A stretch of 64,000 bases of DNA, from assembly GCF_017094505.1 (NCBI RefSeq), contig NZ_CP064787.1, positions 1,240,001 through 1,304,000 on the forward strand, read 5' to 3'. The notes under the pieces were generated by a model that was not told where the DNA came from, did no database searches, and saw only the letters and a program-made list of their open reading frames with translations. Shown here in pieces: positions 50,969-60,323 of this stretch; position 1 is the stretch's first letter, and each line of letters starts with the position of its first letter. A program made the translations under genes and the position numbers. The stretch comes from Halapricum desulfuricans. Lineage in GTDB: Archaea > Halobacteriota > Halobacteria > Halobacteriales > Haloarculaceae.

Positions 50969-51306
50969 TCACATACGAATGCGCTCGCAGGCCGGCCGTC
51001 GTCAGCACATGACTCTCGGCTGGACTGTTCGCAGATGGAACTGCTCGCGAGTCGGCCGTCGTCAGCACATGACTCCTGGCTGGACAACTCGCGCATGAAC
51101 GCGCTCACGAGTCGGCCGTCGTCAGCACATGACTCCTGGCTGGACAACTCGCGCATGAACGCGCTCACGAGTCGGCCGTCGTCAGCACACGACTCTCGGC
51201 TGGACTGTTCGCACACGAGCGTGCTCACGAGTCGGCCGTCGTCAGCACACGACTCCCGGCTGGTACGACTCGCGCATGCACGCGCTCGCGGGCCGGCCGT
51301 CGTCAG
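50969..51306. repeat. 60-bp tandem repeat array between dhaK and hemL
   Basis: A half unit (50969-51000) is followed by five full units starting at 51001, 51061, 51121, 51181 and 51241 (the last is 61 bases). Each contains the core GTCGGCCGTCGTCAGCAC and GACTC/GAGTC inverted-repeat ends; the units at 51061 and 51121 are identical. The unit length of 60 keeps the frame open upstream of hemL, so a long false N-terminus can be read through it. No spacers occur, so this is not CRISPR. Confidence 0.92.
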
Positions 51307-51337
51307 CTTCTTTCCACTCTGGTTCGAAACCCACGCC

Positions 51338-52672
51338 ATGAACCACGACGAGTCCCGTGATCTGTACGACCGTGCGCTGTCGGTCATGCCCGGCGGGGTC
51401 AACTCCTCGGTCCGGGCGATCCGCCCGTATCCGTTCTTCGTCCGGAAGGGCGACGGCGGCCACGTGATCGACGCCGACGGCAACCGCTACATCGACTTCG
51501 TGATGGGCTACGGCCCCCTCCTGCTGGGCCACGACCTGCCCGACTCCGTCCGGGCCGCAGTCCAGCGACGCGCCAGCGAAGGACCGATGTACGGCGCGCC
51601 CACCGAAGTCGAGGTCGAACTCGCTGAGTTCGTCACCCGACACGTCCCCGGCGTCGAGATGGTCCGGTTCGTCAACAGCGGCACCGAAGCGACCGTCTCC
51701 GCCGTCCGTCTCGCCCGCGGCTACACCGGCCGTGACAAAATCGTCATCATGGAGGGGAGCTACCACGGCGCGCAGGAATCGACGCTGGTCGAGGGCGAAC
51801 GCGAGCACACCGCCCCCTCCAGCCCGGGTATCCCCGAGAGCTTCGCCGAACACACGCTCACTGTTCCGTTCAACGACGAAACCGCCGCCCGAGAGGTCTT
51901 CGAGGAACACGGCGACGACATCGCTGCGGTGCTCACCGAACCGGTCCTGGGCAATCACGGCATCGTCCATCCCGTCGAGGGGTACCACGAGACGCTCCGG
52001 GACCTGACCGACCAGCACGGCGCACTCCTGATCTTCGACGAAGTCATCACGGGCTTTCGCGTCGGCGGCCTGCAGTGCGCCCAGGGGAAGTTCGGGATCG
52101 ACCCCGATCTCACGACGTTCGGTAAGATCGTCGGCGGCGGCTTCCCGGTCGGCGCGATCGGCGGGAAAAGCGAAATCATCGAGCATTTCACGCCCGCCGG
52201 CGATGTCTTCCAGTCGGGCACTTTCTCCGGTCACCCCGTGACGATGGCCGCCGGTCTCGAGACGCTGCGGTATGCCGCCGAAAACGACGTCTACGACCAC
52301 GTCAACGCTCTGGGCGAGCGATTGCGCTCCGGGATCGCCGACATCCTCGAGGATCAAGCCCCCGCCTACACTGTCGTCGGGACCGACTCGATGTTCAAGG
52401 TGATCTTCACCCGCGACGGCGAGTTCGGCGAGGGTCACTGCGAGAGCGGGTGTACCCAGGACCCGACCTGCCCGCGCTACGAGTTCTGCCCGAAAAACGG
52501 CGCGGACGTCGACCGCGCCGAGACCGAACGCTGGGAGCGCCTCTTCTGGCCCGCGATGAAAGAGGAGGGGATCTTCCTCACCCCCAATCAGTTCGAATCG
52601 CAGTTCGTCTCTGCCGCCCACACCGACGAAGACGTCGAGCAGGCGCTCGAGGCCTACAAGCGCGTGCTGTGA
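51338..52672 (+). CDS. hemL: Glutamate-1-semialdehyde 2,1-aminomutase
   Basis: A 444-residue PLP enzyme that makes 5-aminolevulinate, the step after HemA. Features: [43 protein letters not shown] (N-terminal signature), [39 protein letters not shown], the PLP Lys in [18 protein letters not shown] and [17 protein letters not shown]. The ATG at 51338 is chosen by the family N-terminus ([15 protein letters not shown]); upstream in-frame codons come from the 60-base repeat. It carries an insert with five Cys ([22 protein letters not shown]) near residue 370. Confidence 0.94.
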
Positions 52673-52909
52673 TCACTCGAAGAGATACGCGTCGAGTTCC
52701 CCGATCCCGACTCCCCCCGCGACGGCGAGCAGCACGACGCCGACCGCGAGCAGCCCGATCGCAACGGCCAGATTGGCTTCGGCCATGATCGTCGCGACGC
52801 CTGCGACGACGGACAGAAACGCCGTCGCAACGACGATCGCGAAAACGATCGATCGCTCGCGGCTGTACTCGTCGGACTCGAACAGTTGTGCGTCGCTGAA
52901 TTCCGCCAT
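52673..52909 (-). CDS. Small two-helix membrane protein
   Basis: A 78-residue protein with a hydrophilic N-terminus (MAEFSDAQLFESDEYSRERS) and two membrane helices (about residues 20-43 and 47-67). It converges tail to tail with hemL and lies upstream of the hydrogenase operon in map order but on the same strand as it. The protein is haloarchaeal in character; I do not know its family. Confidence 0.6.
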   Translation of the reverse strand: MAEFSDAQLFESDEYSRERSIVFAIVVATAFLSVVAGVATIMAEANLAVAIGLLAVGVVLLAVAGGVGIGELDAYLFE

Positions 52910-53005: not shown

Positions 53006-53170
53006 TTACCGTTCGCCGCCGGCCTCATCTCCGAACGTCCAGGGGTCGTTCGAGAGCAGGCGTTCGGGTCTGAGCAATCCACGGACGTGATGGCCTTCCG
53101 ACTCGTGGGCTTCGATCTCCTCACGATCGATCTCGGTCTCGCAGTCAGTGCAGTACCAGCGGGTGTTCAC
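53006..53170 (-). CDS. Small CxxC protein in the hydrogenase operon
   Basis: A 54-residue ORF starting with GTG that overlaps the stop of the hydrogenase maturation protease gene (GTGA), so it is the fifth, translationally coupled gene of the operon. The N-terminus NTRWYCTDCETEIDREEIEA has one CxxC pair (Cys7, Cys10); a His-rich stretch (HESEGHHVRG, residues 22-30) could complete a metal site. The C-terminal part has LLRPERLLSNDPWTFGDEA. I do not recognise a family. Nickel or zinc handling during hydrogenase assembly is an inference from position and residues. Confidence 0.7.
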   Translation of the reverse strand: MNTRWYCTDCETEIDREEIEAHESEGHHVRGLLRPERLLSNDPWTFGDEAGGER

Positions 53171-53649
53171 CGTTCGACCTCCGTTCGGATACGCGCCGCG
53201 ATCGTTTCGCGGACGATCTCGATCACGTCGGGAACGCGCTCGGCCACGACGTCGCTCAACTCCGTTCCCGGCCCGGTGTCGGCCGGCTGGACGCCGATCA
53301 CGAGCAACTCCTCCGGCAGGTCGTATGGGTCCTCTCCCGCCTGTAACGCCTCCGAGAAGGAGAAGTCGTGCATCAGAACCTCGGGCGGTGAGCCGTCAAA
53401 CGACCCCTCGTTATACCGGTATCGGTGGATCGTTCCGGGCTCCGCGCCCTCGACCGCGACCGCGTCGACGATGACCGCGTAGTCGGCCCCGCTCATCGCC
53501 TCCAGCGCGAAAAACGCCGTCGTGCCGGCGTGAGTCGCCACGACGCCGTCCTCGTCACGAAACGCCTCGACGACGCGCTCGCCGACGCCGTCGTCCCCCA
53601 TGATCGGGTTTCCGACGCCGACGACGGCGACGTGTGACCTCTCACTCAT
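53167..53649 (-). CDS. hyaD: Hydrogenase maturation protease (HyaD/HycI-type)
   Basis: A 160-residue endopeptidase that trims the C-terminal tail of the large subunit after nickel insertion. VAVVGVGNPIMGDDGVGERVVEAF (the conserved GNPxMxDDGxG motif with the Ni-sensing Asp), VIVDAVAVEGAEPGTIHRY (second conserved Asp) and MHDFSFSEAL (His) are present. The start at 53649 (MSERSHVAVVGV) overlaps the cytochrome gene by 8 bases. It is coupled to the downstream CxxC gene. Confidence 0.92.
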   Translation of the reverse strand: MSERSHVAVVGVGNPIMGDDGVGERVVEAFRDEDGVVATHAGTTAFFALEAMSGADYAVIVDAVAVEGAEPGTIHRYRYNEGSFDGSPPEVLMHDFSFSEALQAGEDPYDLPEELLVIGVQPADTGPGTELSDVVAERVPDVIEIVRETIAARIRTEVER

Positions 53650-54601
53650 CGGTTCGCTCACCACCGCGTGCCGCGTCGTCGCTCGTTTCGTCCTCTTCCG
53701 CGCTCCGGGACTGTCCCCCGTCGGCGGCTGCCGGCGTCGGTCCGTTCTCTGAGAACGGCTCCTCGCCGCCCGTCTCTTCGCGGCCGCCGCGGACGATATA
53801 GGCGCTCACGTCACCGAACACCATCGATCTGAGCACGTCCCAGTTGCTCGGCAGGACCGCGAAGTAAATGTGAAACATGACCATCACTGCGGTGACGAAC
53901 GCCAGAAGCAGGTGGATCTGCTTGAGCGTCTCCAGCGCCAGCCAGCCTGACATGAACCCGAGCGCGTCGATCCACCAGGTCGACTCGGTCGCCATCTCCC
54001 GATACATGCCGAAGCCAGTCAGCGCGAGGATGCCGATGAAGATGGCGATCCACCAGAAGAACGTCTTCTGCATCGGATGGTGGGCGATCCAGTCGCCCTC
54101 TTCCTCGTCGTAGGCGCGCCGCGCGTCGTGGTAGTAGGGGAGGTACTTCCGCAGGCCGACGAACGCCTCGGCGATGGCGGTTCCGACCTGAATGTCAGCC
54201 AGTTCGAGCAACTGGTGGTGCTTGTCGACAAAGACGTAGTAGTAGGGAAAGACCACAAACGTGATCGCGACGATCAGGATGCCCGTCCACATGTGGATCC
54301 CGAAGGCGACGTAGTAGCCCCCCCAGATCCCGGATTCGAGCAGGACGTAGTTACCCGTCCAGATGGCGAAGCCGGTCCACAGAAGCAAGAAGAACAGTAT
54401 CGCCTGCACCCAGTGGCTGATCCGGTTGCCCAGCGAGTGCCGTTCGACCGAGCGCCGTTCGGCCGTCTCCAGCTGTGCGACTCTGTCGTCGGTCTCCTTG
54501 AGATCCGCACGGGCTAGCCGGACGAGTCGCTGTACGCGCCGGAGTACACCCGTCTCGTCGCTGGCGGGCGACTCGTTCGCGTCGTCAGCCGTTCCCGGCA
54601 T
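53642..54601 (-). CDS. hyaC: Cytochrome b subunit of the NiFe hydrogenase
   Basis: A 319-residue membrane cytochrome b with five or so helices; His residues for heme ligation appear in RISHWVQAILFFLLLWTGFAI, FGIHMWTGILIVAITF, IHLLLAFVTAVMVMFHIYFAVLP and VDKHHQLLELAD. N- and C-terminal extensions are acidic and disordered. It links the extracellular small/large subunit pair to the membrane quinone pool. The start at 54601 overlaps the large-subunit gene by 17 bases. Confidence 0.9.
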   Translation of the reverse strand: MPGTADDANESPASDETGVLRRVQRLVRLARADLKETDDRVAQLETAERRSVERHSLGNRISHWVQAILFFLLLWTGFAIWTGNYVLLESGIWGGYYVAFGIHMWTGILIVAITFVVFPYYYVFVDKHHQLLELADIQVGTAIAEAFVGLRKYLPYYHDARRAYDEEEGDWIAHHPMQKTFFWWIAIFIGILALTGFGMYREMATESTWWIDALGFMSGWLALETLKQIHLLLAFVTAVMVMFHIYFAVLPSNWDVLRSMVFGDVSAYIVRGGREETGGEEPFSENGPTPAAADGGQSRSAEEDETSDDAARGGERTDE

Positions 54602-56120
54602 CGGTCATCCCTCCCGGCGACGCCGGCTTGAGTTCGGTTTCGTACGATCCTTCCGGGCTATCGACGTGGACCGAACAGGCCAGGCACGGATCGAACGAAC
54701 GGACCGTCCGCATCACGTTGATCGGGTCCTCGATGTCCGCGACCTCGTCGCCGACGATGGCCCCTTCGATGATCGAGGGGTTGCCCTCGCCGTCTCGCGG
54801 CCCGATGTTCCACAGCGTCGGCGTGATGATCTGGTAGCGTTCGATCTCCCCGTTTCTGACGTCGACATAGTGAGAGAGCGTCCCCCTAGACGGCTCCCAG
54901 AGGCCGACCCCCTTGCCGGTGTAATCGTCGGGAAAGTCGGCCATCAGGGGCTCGTTCGGGTCGAACGCGTCCAGCAGATCCAGCACCCGATCGCGGACGA
55001 TCAGCACCTCCTGTGCACGGGCGATGAGGCGATTGAGCGTGTTGCTCTCGTCGGACCCTCCGCCCAGGTTCGCCCGGAGGTCGAACGGATCGTACCCCGA
55101 AATCGTGAGTCTGGCCAGCGGCCCGACCTCCATCGTCTGGCCGTCGAATCTGGGTGCTTTCCCCCAGGAGTAGGCCCCCTCTTTGTTGGGGTCCGGATCC
55201 GGCGGTTTCGCCTCGGTCGGCGCCCCGCCCGAGTCGTCCGTGTAGTAGGAGTACTCCGTGTGTTCGGAGATGGCCTCGACGATCTCGTCTTTCGTCATCC
55301 GTTCGGTTGATCCGTCCCGATAGACGCCGCGCTTGAAGATCCGTTCGTCGGACTCGGGCTCCCTGAACAGCCCGTTGCTGTAGTAGCGGTTCGGTCCCGA
55401 ACCGAGGTCGGCGGCCCCCTCTCTGGCGGCGGCCACGAGAATCGAAACGACGTCGTGGAGCCCTTCCCCCAGTTCGGGATCGAACTCCCCGTTCTGGACG
55501 TTTTCGAGGACGTCCGGAACCGCATCCGTCGGTCCGAGCCAGTTGCTGACCTCCCTGAGACGGGATTTGACGGTCTGTACCGTCGAGACGTCCGGATTCG
55601 TCGCGACCCCGCCGGGGACGAACGCGAGCGGGTGAGGAGCGCGCCCGCCGAACTCCGCCAGCGCCTGCATGAGTTTTCGCTGGTTTTCCAGCGCTCCCTG
55701 ATACCCCTCGCCCTCGAGCGGGTCGAGCCGCTCGAAGCCCGTGTCAGCGACCGCGTCGCTGTAGTCTGGACCGACCAGCGCGAACAGGTGGATCGCGTGG
55801 TTCCACAGGAAGAAGATGCCCTCGACCGCGTCTCTGAGGATCTTGGCGTGCTCCGGGATCCCGTCGAAGGCACCGGCGTTGATCGCCGCGTCTTCGGTCG
55901 CCCGCGAGGAACCGATCCGGTGACAGATGAAACAGACGCCACAGACTTTCCCCGTGAGCTGTGCCGCGTCCCGGGGCGATCTGCCGACGGTGATGATCTC
56001 GGCCCCACGGAACATCTTCATCGTGCTTCTGGCCTCCGTGATCTGACCGTCCTCTACCTCCAGCTCCATTCCGTGGTGACCTTCGATGCGTGTCGTCGGG
56101 TCGATTTTCACTTCTACCAT
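54585..56120 (-). CDS. hyaB: NiFe hydrogenase large subunit
   Basis: A 511-residue catalytic subunit. Nickel ligands are the N-terminal CxxC at Cys60/Cys63 in TGKVCGVCFICH (usually RVCGVCP..H, so Lys for Arg and Phe for Pro here) and the C-terminal DPCLACSVH (Cys479, Cys482). After His485 a 26-residue tail follows, to be removed by the maturation protease. Other family segments (KIDPTTRIEGHHGMELEVEDG, HAIHLFALVGPDYSD) are normal. The arrangement small-large-cytochrome-protease is that of a membrane-bound H2-uptake (group 1) enzyme. Confidence 0.93.
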   Translation of the reverse strand: MVEVKIDPTTRIEGHHGMELEVEDGQITEARSTMKMFRGAEIITVGRSPRDAAQLTGKVCGVCFICHRIGSSRATEDAAINAGAFDGIPEHAKILRDAVEGIFFLWNHAIHLFALVGPDYSDAVADTGFERLDPLEGEGYQGALENQRKLMQALAEFGGRAPHPLAFVPGGVATNPDVSTVQTVKSRLREVSNWLGPTDAVPDVLENVQNGEFDPELGEGLHDVVSILVAAAREGAADLGSGPNRYYSNGLFREPESDERIFKRGVYRDGSTERMTKDEIVEAISEHTEYSYYTDDSGGAPTEAKPPDPDPNKEGAYSWGKAPRFDGQTMEVGPLARLTISGYDPFDLRANLGGGSDESNTLNRLIARAQEVLIVRDRVLDLLDAFDPNEPLMADFPDDYTGKGVGLWEPSRGTLSHYVDVRNGEIERYQIITPTLWNIGPRDGEGNPSIIEGAIVGDEVADIEDPINVMRTVRSFDPCLACSVHVDSPEGSYETELKPASPGGMTDAGNG

Positions 56121-56126
56121 TGTCGA

Positions 56127-57326
56127 TCACTCCGGTTTGTCGGCTCCCGTTTCGGTGTCTGACTGCTGGTCGGCGTCCGACGCCGTGCGTTCCTCGACGG
56201 CACTCTCGGATTGATTTCCGTCGCTGTCCCGCTCGGACGTCCCGTATCCCATCGCCTTCCGGGCAGCGTGCGCGCCGATCCCGACGACGCCGGCACCGAC
56301 TACAGCCAACCCGGCCGTCTCCACGTCGACGCCGAAGATGTTCTGCTGTTCGACCTCCTTGTCCAGCGGCTGGAAGCGGTCCCAGAACCCGGGTTCCATA
56401 CAGCCGATACACGGCGCGCCCACGTTGAGACAGACGCTCGTCCCGTCGTTCCACAGCCGGGTCTGGTCGTCGCAGTTCGTGTAGGGTCCGGCACACCCCA
56501 CCTTGTACAGACACCCTTCCTCGCCGGGCCTGTCCGCGAACTCGCCGCGATCGAAGTAGCCGCGCCACTTGCAGTTGTCGTGGACGAGCGGTTCGTAGAA
56601 CGGCTTTGGTCGCTGATACCGGTCGAGATCTGGCTTGTGACCGTTGAGGACGGTCGCGATCGTCAAGAGGATGTAATCGGGATGCGGGGGACAGCCCCCG
56701 AGGTTGATGACCGGAAGGCCCGACCCGGCGGTGAAATCCGGCCCGAGCACCCCGTTTTTCTCGCGTTGCTCGAACTGAAGTCCCCTGGCTCCAGTGACGT
56801 TTTCGCCGACGTCGTGGAGCCCCCTCTTGTTCTCGGCCGCCGGCCAGCCGCCGAAAGCCGCGCAGTTGCCCACGCCGATAACGTACTCGGCCTCGGGGGC
56901 CAGCTCCTTGATCCAGTCGACGAGCGGCTTGCTCGTCCCGTCCGGGCGCTCGCCAAGCGTCGCGGCGGACGGAATCTGAGTCGGTACCGACCCCTCGAGA
57001 ACGAGTACGTCCGGCGACTTGCTCATCGATTCGATGGCCGCCTCCCCCTGCTCTGCCATGAGTGTCGGGTGGAAGGTCAACTCCATCCGGAACTCACTCA
57101 GGGTCTCTTCCAGGGTCGGATACTGTCCCTGAAGAAGCGATATCGTACACCCCGAACAGCTCTGACCCTGCAACCAGGCGACCTCGATCGGCCCGTCTGT
57201 CGCCTGCTGCAGCGCCTGCGCAATCTCGCCCGTGTGGCGGGATACGACCGCCCCGGCCGACATCGTCCCGGCGAGTTTCAGGAAGTTTCGCCTGGTCTGG
57301 CCGTTGTCGCCAGTTCGTATGGCCAT
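56127..57326 (-). CDS. hyaA: NiFe hydrogenase small subunit
   Basis: A 399-residue iron-sulfur subunit exported by the Tat route. It has the twin-arginine motif TRRNFLKLAG (Arg12-Arg13) in its leader, the proximal cluster Cys in QGQSCSGCTIS, GVGNCAAFGGW and LGGCPPHPDY, and further Cys (HDNCKWRG, GCLYKVGCAGPYTNC, CLNVGAPCIGCMEPGFWD) for the medial and distal clusters. A C-terminal helix (TAGLAVVGAGVVGIGAHAARK) anchors it to the membrane, and the end is an acidic tail. The ATG at 57326 has TATTTTTAA on the minus strand about 30 bases upstream. Confidence 0.94.
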   Translation of the reverse strand: MAIRTGDNGQTRRNFLKLAGTMSAGAVVSRHTGEIAQALQQATDGPIEVAWLQGQSCSGCTISLLQGQYPTLEETLSEFRMELTFHPTLMAEQGEAAIESMSKSPDVLVLEGSVPTQIPSAATLGERPDGTSKPLVDWIKELAPEAEYVIGVGNCAAFGGWPAAENKRGLHDVGENVTGARGLQFEQREKNGVLGPDFTAGSGLPVINLGGCPPHPDYILLTIATVLNGHKPDLDRYQRPKPFYEPLVHDNCKWRGYFDRGEFADRPGEEGCLYKVGCAGPYTNCDDQTRLWNDGTSVCLNVGAPCIGCMEPGFWDRFQPLDKEVEQQNIFGVDVETAGLAVVGAGVVGIGAHAARKAMGYGTSERDSDGNQSESAVEERTASDADQQSDTETGADKPE

Positions 57327-57351
57327 ACTGGGAAGAGGAGCATAAACAACA

Positions 57352-57360
57352 TTAAAAATA
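57352..57360 (-). promoter_or_regulatory. Hydrogenase operon TATA box
   Basis: TATTTTTAA on the minus strand lies about 26-34 bases before the hyaA ATG (57326), the spacing of a leaderless promoter for the whole five-gene operon. The region just upstream is A/T rich (CTATATC). Confidence 0.5.
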
Positions 57361-57464
57361 GATATAGATTCTTGCGCTCTGAGAAGACTACTCGGTGGTG
57401 TGTCGAGGACTGTGAAAGCGTATCGGTGGAGTCCAGTGATTTCGCCGGGAGAGTCACGTACCAC

Positions 57465-57869: not shown

Positions 57870-60323
57870 GTGATAGCAGACAGAGTAAAACGCACATCAA
57901 CAGTCGTGATCTTCCTTGCGATCGGAGTAGCGACACTGACGGGCACTGCACTCGCGGCGGACGTCGCCGGCGAGCAGCATGCAGCCCAGACAGCATTGAG
58001 TCAGACGAACGACTCGTTCAACGTTTCGAATTTGAGCGTCGAGGACGGTGAGAGCGTCACTGTCACCGCCGACATCACCAACCCCGGAGCGGAGCCAGCG
58101 ATCCAGCCAGTCGAACTCCGCGTCGATGGCGAACTAATCGAGTACCGGCCCTGGGCACTCAACCCGGGAGAGACAGAACAGATCAGGTTCGACGTCGAGT
58201 CCGATCAGGTGAGCGAGGATAGCATTATCAGCGTGCAGACGCGCACGCACGGCGAAGTAGCGATCTTCGGCGAGGCGATATCGCCCGAGGCTTCGATCAC
58301 CTTCGAGGATCAGACCAGCGACGGCACCAGCGTCACGATCGCGGACATCTCCAACGACGAGACGCCCTATTACGGGGCCGTCTGGACAGTGAACAACGAG
58401 ACCGGTGAACCAGAGACACTGCTCGGTGCTGCTCAGGTTACTGAAAACGAAACGAGTAATCTCACAGTCGATTTCGAGGAACCGATCGAAGAGAACCAGA
58501 CGCTAGTCGCCGCCGTCCACCCTGACGAGGACGGTGACGCAGAGACTATCGACCCGGTTGCAGACGAAATTCTCGCCAGTGACACCGCCAATGTGACTGT
58601 CGAAGCAGTCGAGCAGCCGCCCGAGGCCTCGGTTACCTTCGAGGATCAGACCAGTGATGGCACAACCGTCACGATCGCGGACATCTCCAACGACGAGACG
58701 CCCTATTACGGGGCTGTCTGGACGGTGAACAACGAGACCGGCGAGCCCGAGACGCTGCTCGGTGCCGCGCAGGTCAGCGACAACGAAACGAGTAACCTCA
58801 CCGTCTCCTTCGAGGAACCGATCGAGGAGAACCAGACGCTCGTGGCTGCCGTCCACCCTGACGAGGACGGCAACGCCAGCACGGTCGACCCGATTACCGA
58901 CGAGATCCTCGCCAGCGACACGGCCAACGTGACTGTCGAGATGGTCGAGCAGCCGCCCGAAGCCTCGATCACCTTCGAGGATCAGACCAGTGATGGCACA
59001 ACCGTCACGATCGCAAATATTTCGAACGACGAGACGCCCTATTACGGGGCCGTCTGGACAGTGAACAACGAGACCGGTGAACCCGAGACGCTGCTCGGTG
59101 CTGCTCAGGTTACTGAAAACGAAACGAGCGACCTCACTGTCTCCTTCGAGGAACCGATCGAAGAGAACCAGACGCTGATCGCCGCGGTCCACCCTGACGA
59201 GGACGGCAACGCCAGCACGGTCGACCCGATCACCGACGAGATCCTCGCCAGCGACACCGCCAACGTGACTGTCGAAGCGATCGAACAGCCACCCGAAGCA
59301 TCGGTGACCTTCGAGGATCAGACCAGTGATGGCACCAGCGTCACGATTGCGAACGCCTCGAACGACGAGGTGCCCTACTATGGGGCTATCTGGACGGTGA
59401 ACAACGAGACCGGCGAGCCCGAGACGCTGCTCGGTGCCGCTCAGGTGACTGAAAACGAAACGAGCGACCTCACTGTCTCCTTCGAGGAACCGATCGAGGA
59501 GAACCAGACGCTGATCGCCGCGGTTCACCCTGACGAGGACGGCGACGCAGAGACGATAGATCCGGTCGCCGACGAGATCCTCGCCAGCGACACCGCTAAC
59601 GTGACCGTCGAGATGGTCGAGCAGCCGCCCGAGGCCTCGGTTACCTTCGAGGATCAGACCAGTGATGGCACCAGCGTCACGATCGCGGACATCTCCAACG
59701 ACGAGACGCCCTATTACGGGGCTGTCTGGACGGTGAACAACGAGACCGGCGAGCCAGAGACACTGCTCGGTGCTGCACAGGTCAGCGACAACGAAACGAG
59801 CGACCTCACCGTCTCCTTCGAGGAACCGATCGAAGAGAACCAGACACTCGTGGCTGCCGTCCATCCTGATGAGGACGGCAACGCTAGCACAGTCGACCCG
59901 ATCACCGAGGCGATCCTCGCCAGCGACACAGCGAATGTGACTGTCGAAGCAGTCGAACAGCCGCCCGAAGCGTCGGTGACCTTCGAAGACCAGACCAGTG
60001 ACGGATCGACCGTCGCTGTTGCGAACGCGCTCTACGAACAACCGCCGTTCTACGTCGCCGTATACGACACTAACGCCTCCGGCGATATGGCGATGATCGG
60101 CCTGCGGCAAGTCGTCGAACCCGAATCGAGCGAGCTGGCGGTGACGCTCGACGAACCGCTCGACGAAACCGAGGCGCTCGTCGTCGGGCTTCACCCCGAC
60201 GCCGACGGTGAGGCCGGGACGACCGACCCGGTGACAGACAGCTACCTTGCGATCGATATGGCTGACGTGGCTGTCGACCTCGACGGCGCGAACGCGACGA
60301 GCGCTATCGAAGCCGTCCTGTAA
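57870..60323 (+). CDS. Secreted protein with six DUF7282-type repeats
   Basis: An 817-residue protein with a Sec signal (VIFLAIGVATLTGTALAADV, cleavage after ALA near residue 29), an N-terminal CARDB-like beta domain (about 45-140; VEDGESVTVTADITNPGAEPA) and six tandem DUF7282-type repeats of 112 residues (cores EASxTFEDQTSDGTxVTIA ... LVAAVHPDEDG ...). The repeats are almost identical and rich in N-E-T and N-x-S/T sequons, likely glycosylated. No C-terminal anchor motif is visible. GTG start at 57870; a GAGGGTGAG sequence lies just upstream. A cell-surface or extracellular adhesive role is inferred. Confidence 0.85.
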   Translation: MIADRVKRTSTVVIFLAIGVATLTGTALAADVAGEQHAAQTALSQTNDSFNVSNLSVEDGESVTVTADITNPGAEPAIQPVELRVDGELIEYRPWALNPGETEQIRFDVESDQVSEDSIISVQTRTHGEVAIFGEAISPEASITFEDQTSDGTSVTIADISNDETPYYGAVWTVNNETGEPETLLGAAQVTENETSNLTVDFEEPIEENQTLVAAVHPDEDGDAETIDPVADEILASDTANVTVEAVEQPPEASVTFEDQTSDGTTVTIADISNDETPYYGAVWTVNNETGEPETLLGAAQVSDNETSNLTVSFEEPIEENQTLVAAVHPDEDGNASTVDPITDEILASDTANVTVEMVEQPPEASITFEDQTSDGTTVTIANISNDETPYYGAVWTVNNETGEPETLLGAAQVTENETSDLTVSFEEPIEENQTLIAAVHPDEDGNASTVDPITDEILASDTANVTVEAIEQPPEASVTFEDQTSDGTSVTIANASNDEVPYYGAIWTVNNETGEPETLLGAAQVTENETSDLTVSFEEPIEENQTLIAAVHPDEDGDAETIDPVADEILASDTANVTVEMVEQPPEASVTFEDQTSDGTSVTIADISNDETPYYGAVWTVNNETGEPETLLGAAQVSDNETSDLTVSFEEPIEENQTLVAAVHPDEDGNASTVDPITEAILASDTANVTVEAVEQPPEASVTFEDQTSDGSTVAVANALYEQPPFYVAVYDTNASGDMAMIGLRQVVEPESSELAVTLDEPLDETEALVVGLHPDADGEAGTTDPVTDSYLAIDMADVAVDLDGANATSAIEAVL
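58301..60180 (+). repeat. Six 336-bp in-frame repeats
   Basis: The marker CTTCGAGGAT/AGAC recurs at 58301, 58637, 58973, 59309, 59645 and 59981, a perfect 336-base period (112 codons). The first five are very alike; the sixth diverges after about 40 bases. The homogeneity suggests recent duplication or gene conversion. This region is prone to copy-number change and to assembly collapse. Confidence 0.92.

Follow-up and report, generated by a model that had tools for sequence, protein, structure and literature searches.

A small C2H2-type candidate partner of the maturation protease HyaD in haloarchaeal NiFe hydrogenase operons

We describe a 54-residue protein encoded directly downstream of the NiFe hydrogenase maturation protease gene hyaD in a 64,000-nucleotide stretch of Halapricum desulfuricans DNA (contig NZ_CP064787.1, positions 1,240,001 to 1,304,000; hereafter the window). 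With a probability that we put at roughly 0.55, this finger protein is a single-domain C2H2-type protein and a dedicated partner of HyaD, which would bind zinc, contact the protease and serve as an adaptor in the maturation of the hydrogenase large subunit. Such an adaptor of the processing step fits the observations best because the protein is always encoded with HyaD, is once fused to it, and is usually encoded just before HypC.

The finger gene and its neighbors

The finger gene (53006..53170, reverse strand) is a complete open reading frame with a GTG start. This start codon (53170-53168) overlaps the TGA stop codon of hyaD (53169-53167) by four bases, forming a GTGA junction (53167..53170) that likely couples the translation of the two genes. 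An earlier note, made from the letters of the window, had reported this overlap as well as a complete 54-residue frame with one CxxC, and both were seen again in the sequence. The genes preceding it lie on the same strand and encode HyaD (165 residues, 53167..53664; Pfam HycI, 3.4e-16; TIGR00072, 1.5e-31, above cut-off), the hydrogenase cytochrome b subunit (319 residues, 53642..54601; Pfam Ni_hydr_CYTB, 1.8e-15), the NiFe hydrogenase large subunit (511 residues, 54585..56120; Pfam NiFeSe_Hases, 5.7e-80), and the small subunit (56127..57464; Pfam NiFe_hyd_SSU_C, 4.8e-29; TIGR00391, above cut-off). In the large subunit, the motif DPCLACSVH precedes a C-terminal extension, which is what a substrate of HyaD should have, and the small subunit carries a twin-arginine signal (RRNFLKLAG) with a weak match to the Pfam TAT_signal model.

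Judged from its sequence, the finger gene is a real gene and not a chance open reading frame, since it has 28 orthologues and a dN/dS well below 1. Pairwise dN/dS values within Halapricum (about 0.09-0.26) are comparable to those of HyaD and indicate purifying selection, and the substitutions fall mainly in third codon positions. In the orthologues the start lies at the corresponding residue and is usually ATG, which confirms the GTG start. The small membrane protein gene that the earlier note had placed behind the finger gene is indeed present (52673-52909); it occupies this place only in the window and in one close relative, and therefore lies outside the conserved unit.

Two repeats were also observed in the window. 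A tandem array of a 60-base unit (5.2 copies, 50993-51307) lies directly before a glutamate-1-semialdehyde aminotransferase-like gene that starts near 51340, and an 817-residue protein is encoded at 57870-60323, divergent from the hydrogenase operon, by a gene that contains five 336-base repeats (86% matches).

Distribution and operon layout

A set of 145 relatives yielded 14 strong matches (E below 1e-11), all adjoining hyaD. When 391 genomes of the class Halobacteria were searched with a profile of the finger protein, 25 matches were strong (E below 1e-16). A PF00374 hydrogenase is encoded in 35 of these 391 genomes, and all 25 matches were found among those 35 (hypergeometric 1e-31, a value that overstates the case because the genomes are related and thus not independent). 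The earlier note had suggested looking for the same gene after hyaD in other haloarchaeal hydrogenase operons, and it was found there, directly downstream of hyaD in every one of the 25 strong matches. Its description as a gene of a NiFe hydrogenase operon is likewise borne out: it is conserved in haloarchaeal operons of this kind and always adjoins hyaD.

Outside the class, a phylum sample of 393 genomes gave no comparable match to the profile, and no match was found in viral contigs and phages. Among plasmids, the gene was detected only in Natrarchaeobaculum sulfurireducens, where it lies between the protease and HypC genes of pAArc1-02 and is annotated as a hypothetical protein. An exact short-pattern scan of genome contigs with the single protein had Halapricum hydrolyticum as its sole match. 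Weak WYCxDC matches in other haloarchaea (L015-L026) were set aside, as they have neither a hydrogenase nearby nor the RP[DE]RLL tail. These small WYCxDC...H-x4-H proteins form two groups with another tail (L015-L017, L019, L020, L022, and L024 versus L018, L021, L023, L025, and L026), and judged by the motif they are possibly distant relatives of the finger protein. The motif is absent from two further candidates (L027 and L028), which were rejected as chance matches.

Hydrogenases without a finger gene are of several kinds. Seven genomes encode a distant type with a large subunit of 650-720 residues, and the large subunit of another (G094) is 33% identical. Two genomes (G039 and G082) have operons of the same enzyme type in which hyaD is present, the finger gene is absent, and no hyp genes occur within the stretch; the finger gene is therefore not indispensable for every such enzyme. 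Finally, in three other Halapricum genomes (L055, L056, and L057) there is a second hyaA-hyaB pair that has no hyaD of its own and may depend on the HyaD of the first operon. The genome of the window has no such second pair.

Operons with the finger gene follow one of two layouts, hyaA-hyaB-cytochrome b-hyaD-finger or hyaA-hyaB-hyaD-finger. Among the 28 orthologous loci, the four-base overlap with hyaD is found in 17. The next gene is hypC in 24/28 loci; it starts at the stop codon of the finger gene or at most 4 bases away in 23 of them, mostly as TGATG, and slightly overlaps the finger gene in the 24th (G004). In the loci checked, hypC is followed by hypD, E, A, B, and F, completing the set. 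In Halapricum, by contrast, the hyp genes are placed elsewhere; in the genome of the window, hypC-D-E-A-B are located ~85 kb away and the finger gene is still found at hyaD, which points to a bond with hyaD rather than with hypC. At one locus (L122, genome G405), hyaD and the finger gene are separated by 121 bases, as opposed to a four-base overlap in the near relative G366, possibly owing to a frameshift or truncation at the end of hyaD. The cytochrome b of the window was unmatched in the operon stretches fetched for the fusion clade described below and for G004 (L066, L067, L068, L119, L121, L124, and L127), and the electron acceptor may differ in these operons.

Predicted fold and fusion to HyaD

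In addition to M1, twelve residues are invariant in the 28 sequences (C7, C10, I14, H22, E23, H27, V29, P35, R37, L38, L39, and P43), while W5 (at least 90%), Y6, D9, G31, and D42 are nearly invariant and position 19 is I, V, or L. The protein of the window has a single CxxC (C7 and C10) and histidines at positions 22, 27, and 28. The H27-H28 pair that had been singled out in the earlier note does not hold as a feature, since H22 and H27 are invariant and position 28 is H, D, R, S, or T among orthologues. Across the 28 sequences, C7, C10, H22, and H27 and the spacing of the hydrophobic core agree with the classical C2H2 pattern, and they fit a C2H2 zinc finger site of the structural type. A single-sequence model predicts strands at residues 4-7 and 12-14, a helix at 16-24, and a strand at 29-32, and is confident over residues 1-30 (pLDDT about 91 over residues 11-30). 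The finger protein resembles classical C2H2 fingers in its pattern, W-x-C-x2-C-x3-I-x4-[ILV]-x2-H-x4-H, and in the strand-strand-helix arrangement predicted by the model. It differs from them in having one residue fewer from C10 to H22 (11 versus 12), in standing alone, in its acidity, in its conserved tail, and in matching no family above cut-off.

This tail, V-x-G-x3-P-x-R-L-L-x2-D-P, lies behind the finger; its conserved positions are invariant except for G31 and D42, and it is modeled with low confidence (pLDDT about 50). The predicted charge of the helix is mostly -3 to -6 and that of the whole protein -5 to -15, the finger being acidic and the tail near neutral. Haloarchaeal proteins are mostly acidic. 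In agreement with the earlier note, which had recognized no family, nothing exceeded a family cut-off in Pfam and NCBIfam scans; the best matches, a KIN17 finger (8.2) and a deacylase model (0.014), were at chance level and were rejected. A profile search of the PDB returned just short local CxxC matches, and by fold the model came nearest to PDB structures of B-box and ZZ domains, with a best E of 0.39, which is not significant.

In six genomes (G022, G072, G351, G411, G346, and G218), hyaD and the finger gene form one in-frame open reading frame that includes the Pfam HycI protease domain. These genomes form one clade in a maximum-likelihood tree of the large subunit (support 100/99), so the fusion was counted as one event and one independent observation. 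The reading phase is kept across a linker that has 20% identity and whose length differs by whole codons. No in-frame stop codon intervenes; translation of hyaD would therefore run into the finger, barring frameshifting. At the level of sequence comparison, the fusion is a Rosetta-stone link of the finger protein to the protease. The internal start codon of the finger is retained in all six fusions (five ATG and one GTG), although the 12 residues ahead of it are only 20% identical, and a stretch resembling GGAGGTGA precedes it in four of the six. Because the start codon is retained throughout, it is plausible that the fusion clade also makes a free finger protein.

Possible roles of the finger protein

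The earlier note had proposed a metal-handling or assembly factor. A role in assembly is likely given the fusion to HyaD, whereas metal handling found no support, because the conserved Cys/His residues are just four and together form one structural-type C2H2 site, no surplus histidine is conserved (H28 included), and the dedicated nickel proteins HypA and HypB come from separate genes of the same operons or genomes. A metallochaperone, whose Cys and His residues would bind nickel or zinc for delivery to HypA/HypB or the large subunit, is thus quite unlikely, even though such ligands are present and the gene is placed among maturation genes; HyaD, moreover, acts after nickel insertion. With HypA and HypB supplied by their own genes, a metal carrier is less likely than a structural finger serving HyaD as an adaptor. 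The finger protein is like HypA, a nickel metallochaperone with a zinc site, in being a small protein with a presumed zinc site encoded in hydrogenase operons; it matched no HypA model in Pfam or NCBIfam, and HypA has a gene of its own. In bacterial operons, small accessory genes such as those for the HupI/HoxR rubredoxins and HupJ/HybE occupy a similar place behind hyaD/hupD. The rubredoxins have two CxxC pairs, in contrast to the one CxxC and two histidines found here. An export chaperone, a proofreading factor that would keep the twin-arginine substrate back as long as the large subunit is unprocessed, as a functional counterpart of HyaE/HybE, would be consistent with the twin-arginine signal of the small subunit and with the annotated or checked neighborhoods, where hyaD, the finger gene, and the hyp genes are the only accessory genes recognized; a factor linked to HyaD would also couple processing to export. 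We consider it improbable, as the fusion partner is HyaD and not the small subunit, and the Pfam and NCBIfam scans revealed no sequence relation to the HyaE/HybE families.

It is similarly doubtful that the protein regulates its own operon, through transcription or mRNA, in the way that Brz controls bop in Halobacterium salinarum. Nucleic acid binding is common among single zinc fingers, but this gene sits within the operon, after hyaD, and in one clade forms a fusion with the protease gene, and the finger is strongly acidic, though so are most haloarchaeal proteins. The gene for Brz, a small zinc-finger protein of haloarchaea, lies next to its target, and the Cys/His residues of Brz are required (PMC2253796). 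Like Brz and the other CPxCG-related proteins (PMC2253796, PMC11241148), the finger protein is very small, has one presumed zinc site, and is encoded beside the genes that it probably serves. The definition of that family asks for a CPxCG-like pattern and for a further Cys/His pair separated by 2-3 residues (PMC2253796). The finger protein falls outside this definition, with H-x4-H in 28/28 sequences, C-x-D-C in nearly all, and a following G in few orthologues, and it also differs in the linkage and fusion of its gene to a protease gene. All three alternatives are weakened by the fusion to HyaD or by the existence of dedicated genes for those tasks.

In the favored reading, an adaptor serving HyaD, C7, C10, H22, and H27 would coordinate a single structural zinc ion and maintain the small strand-strand-helix fold, and the conserved tail would provide a binding surface. 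The protein might then dock on HyaD, or on HyaD together with the nickel-loaded large subunit as it leaves the HypC/HypD machinery. Proteases of the HyaD type (HybD/HycI-type) cut off the C-terminal extension once nickel has been inserted into the large subunit, and docking could help to unite protease and C-terminus before export, in an order of events that we infer. We suggest more tentatively that the finger protein may represent a new family of NiFe hydrogenase maturation accessories, confined to haloarchaea among the genomes sampled and forming part of the processing protease, with one gene of the fusion clade giving rise to both a HyaD-finger fusion and a free finger.

The maturation of NiFe hydrogenases is thought to be well mapped, with HypA-F and one protease per enzyme. 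In the open-licence literature, no hydrogenase protease with a zinc finger was found, and an earlier mention elsewhere is possible. The passages on the hydrogenases of these operons in two papers do not mention the finger gene (PMC6176080, PMC5437934); the operon description in the former names hydABC, hydD, and hypA-F. If the finger protein is a further factor, its gene accompanying that of the protease in nearly all cases and being joined to it in one clade, processing in haloarchaea would involve a hitherto unknown partner. Its conserved residues provide a short, testable list, and the gene would need to be included when making these salt-tolerant hydrogenases in a laboratory host.
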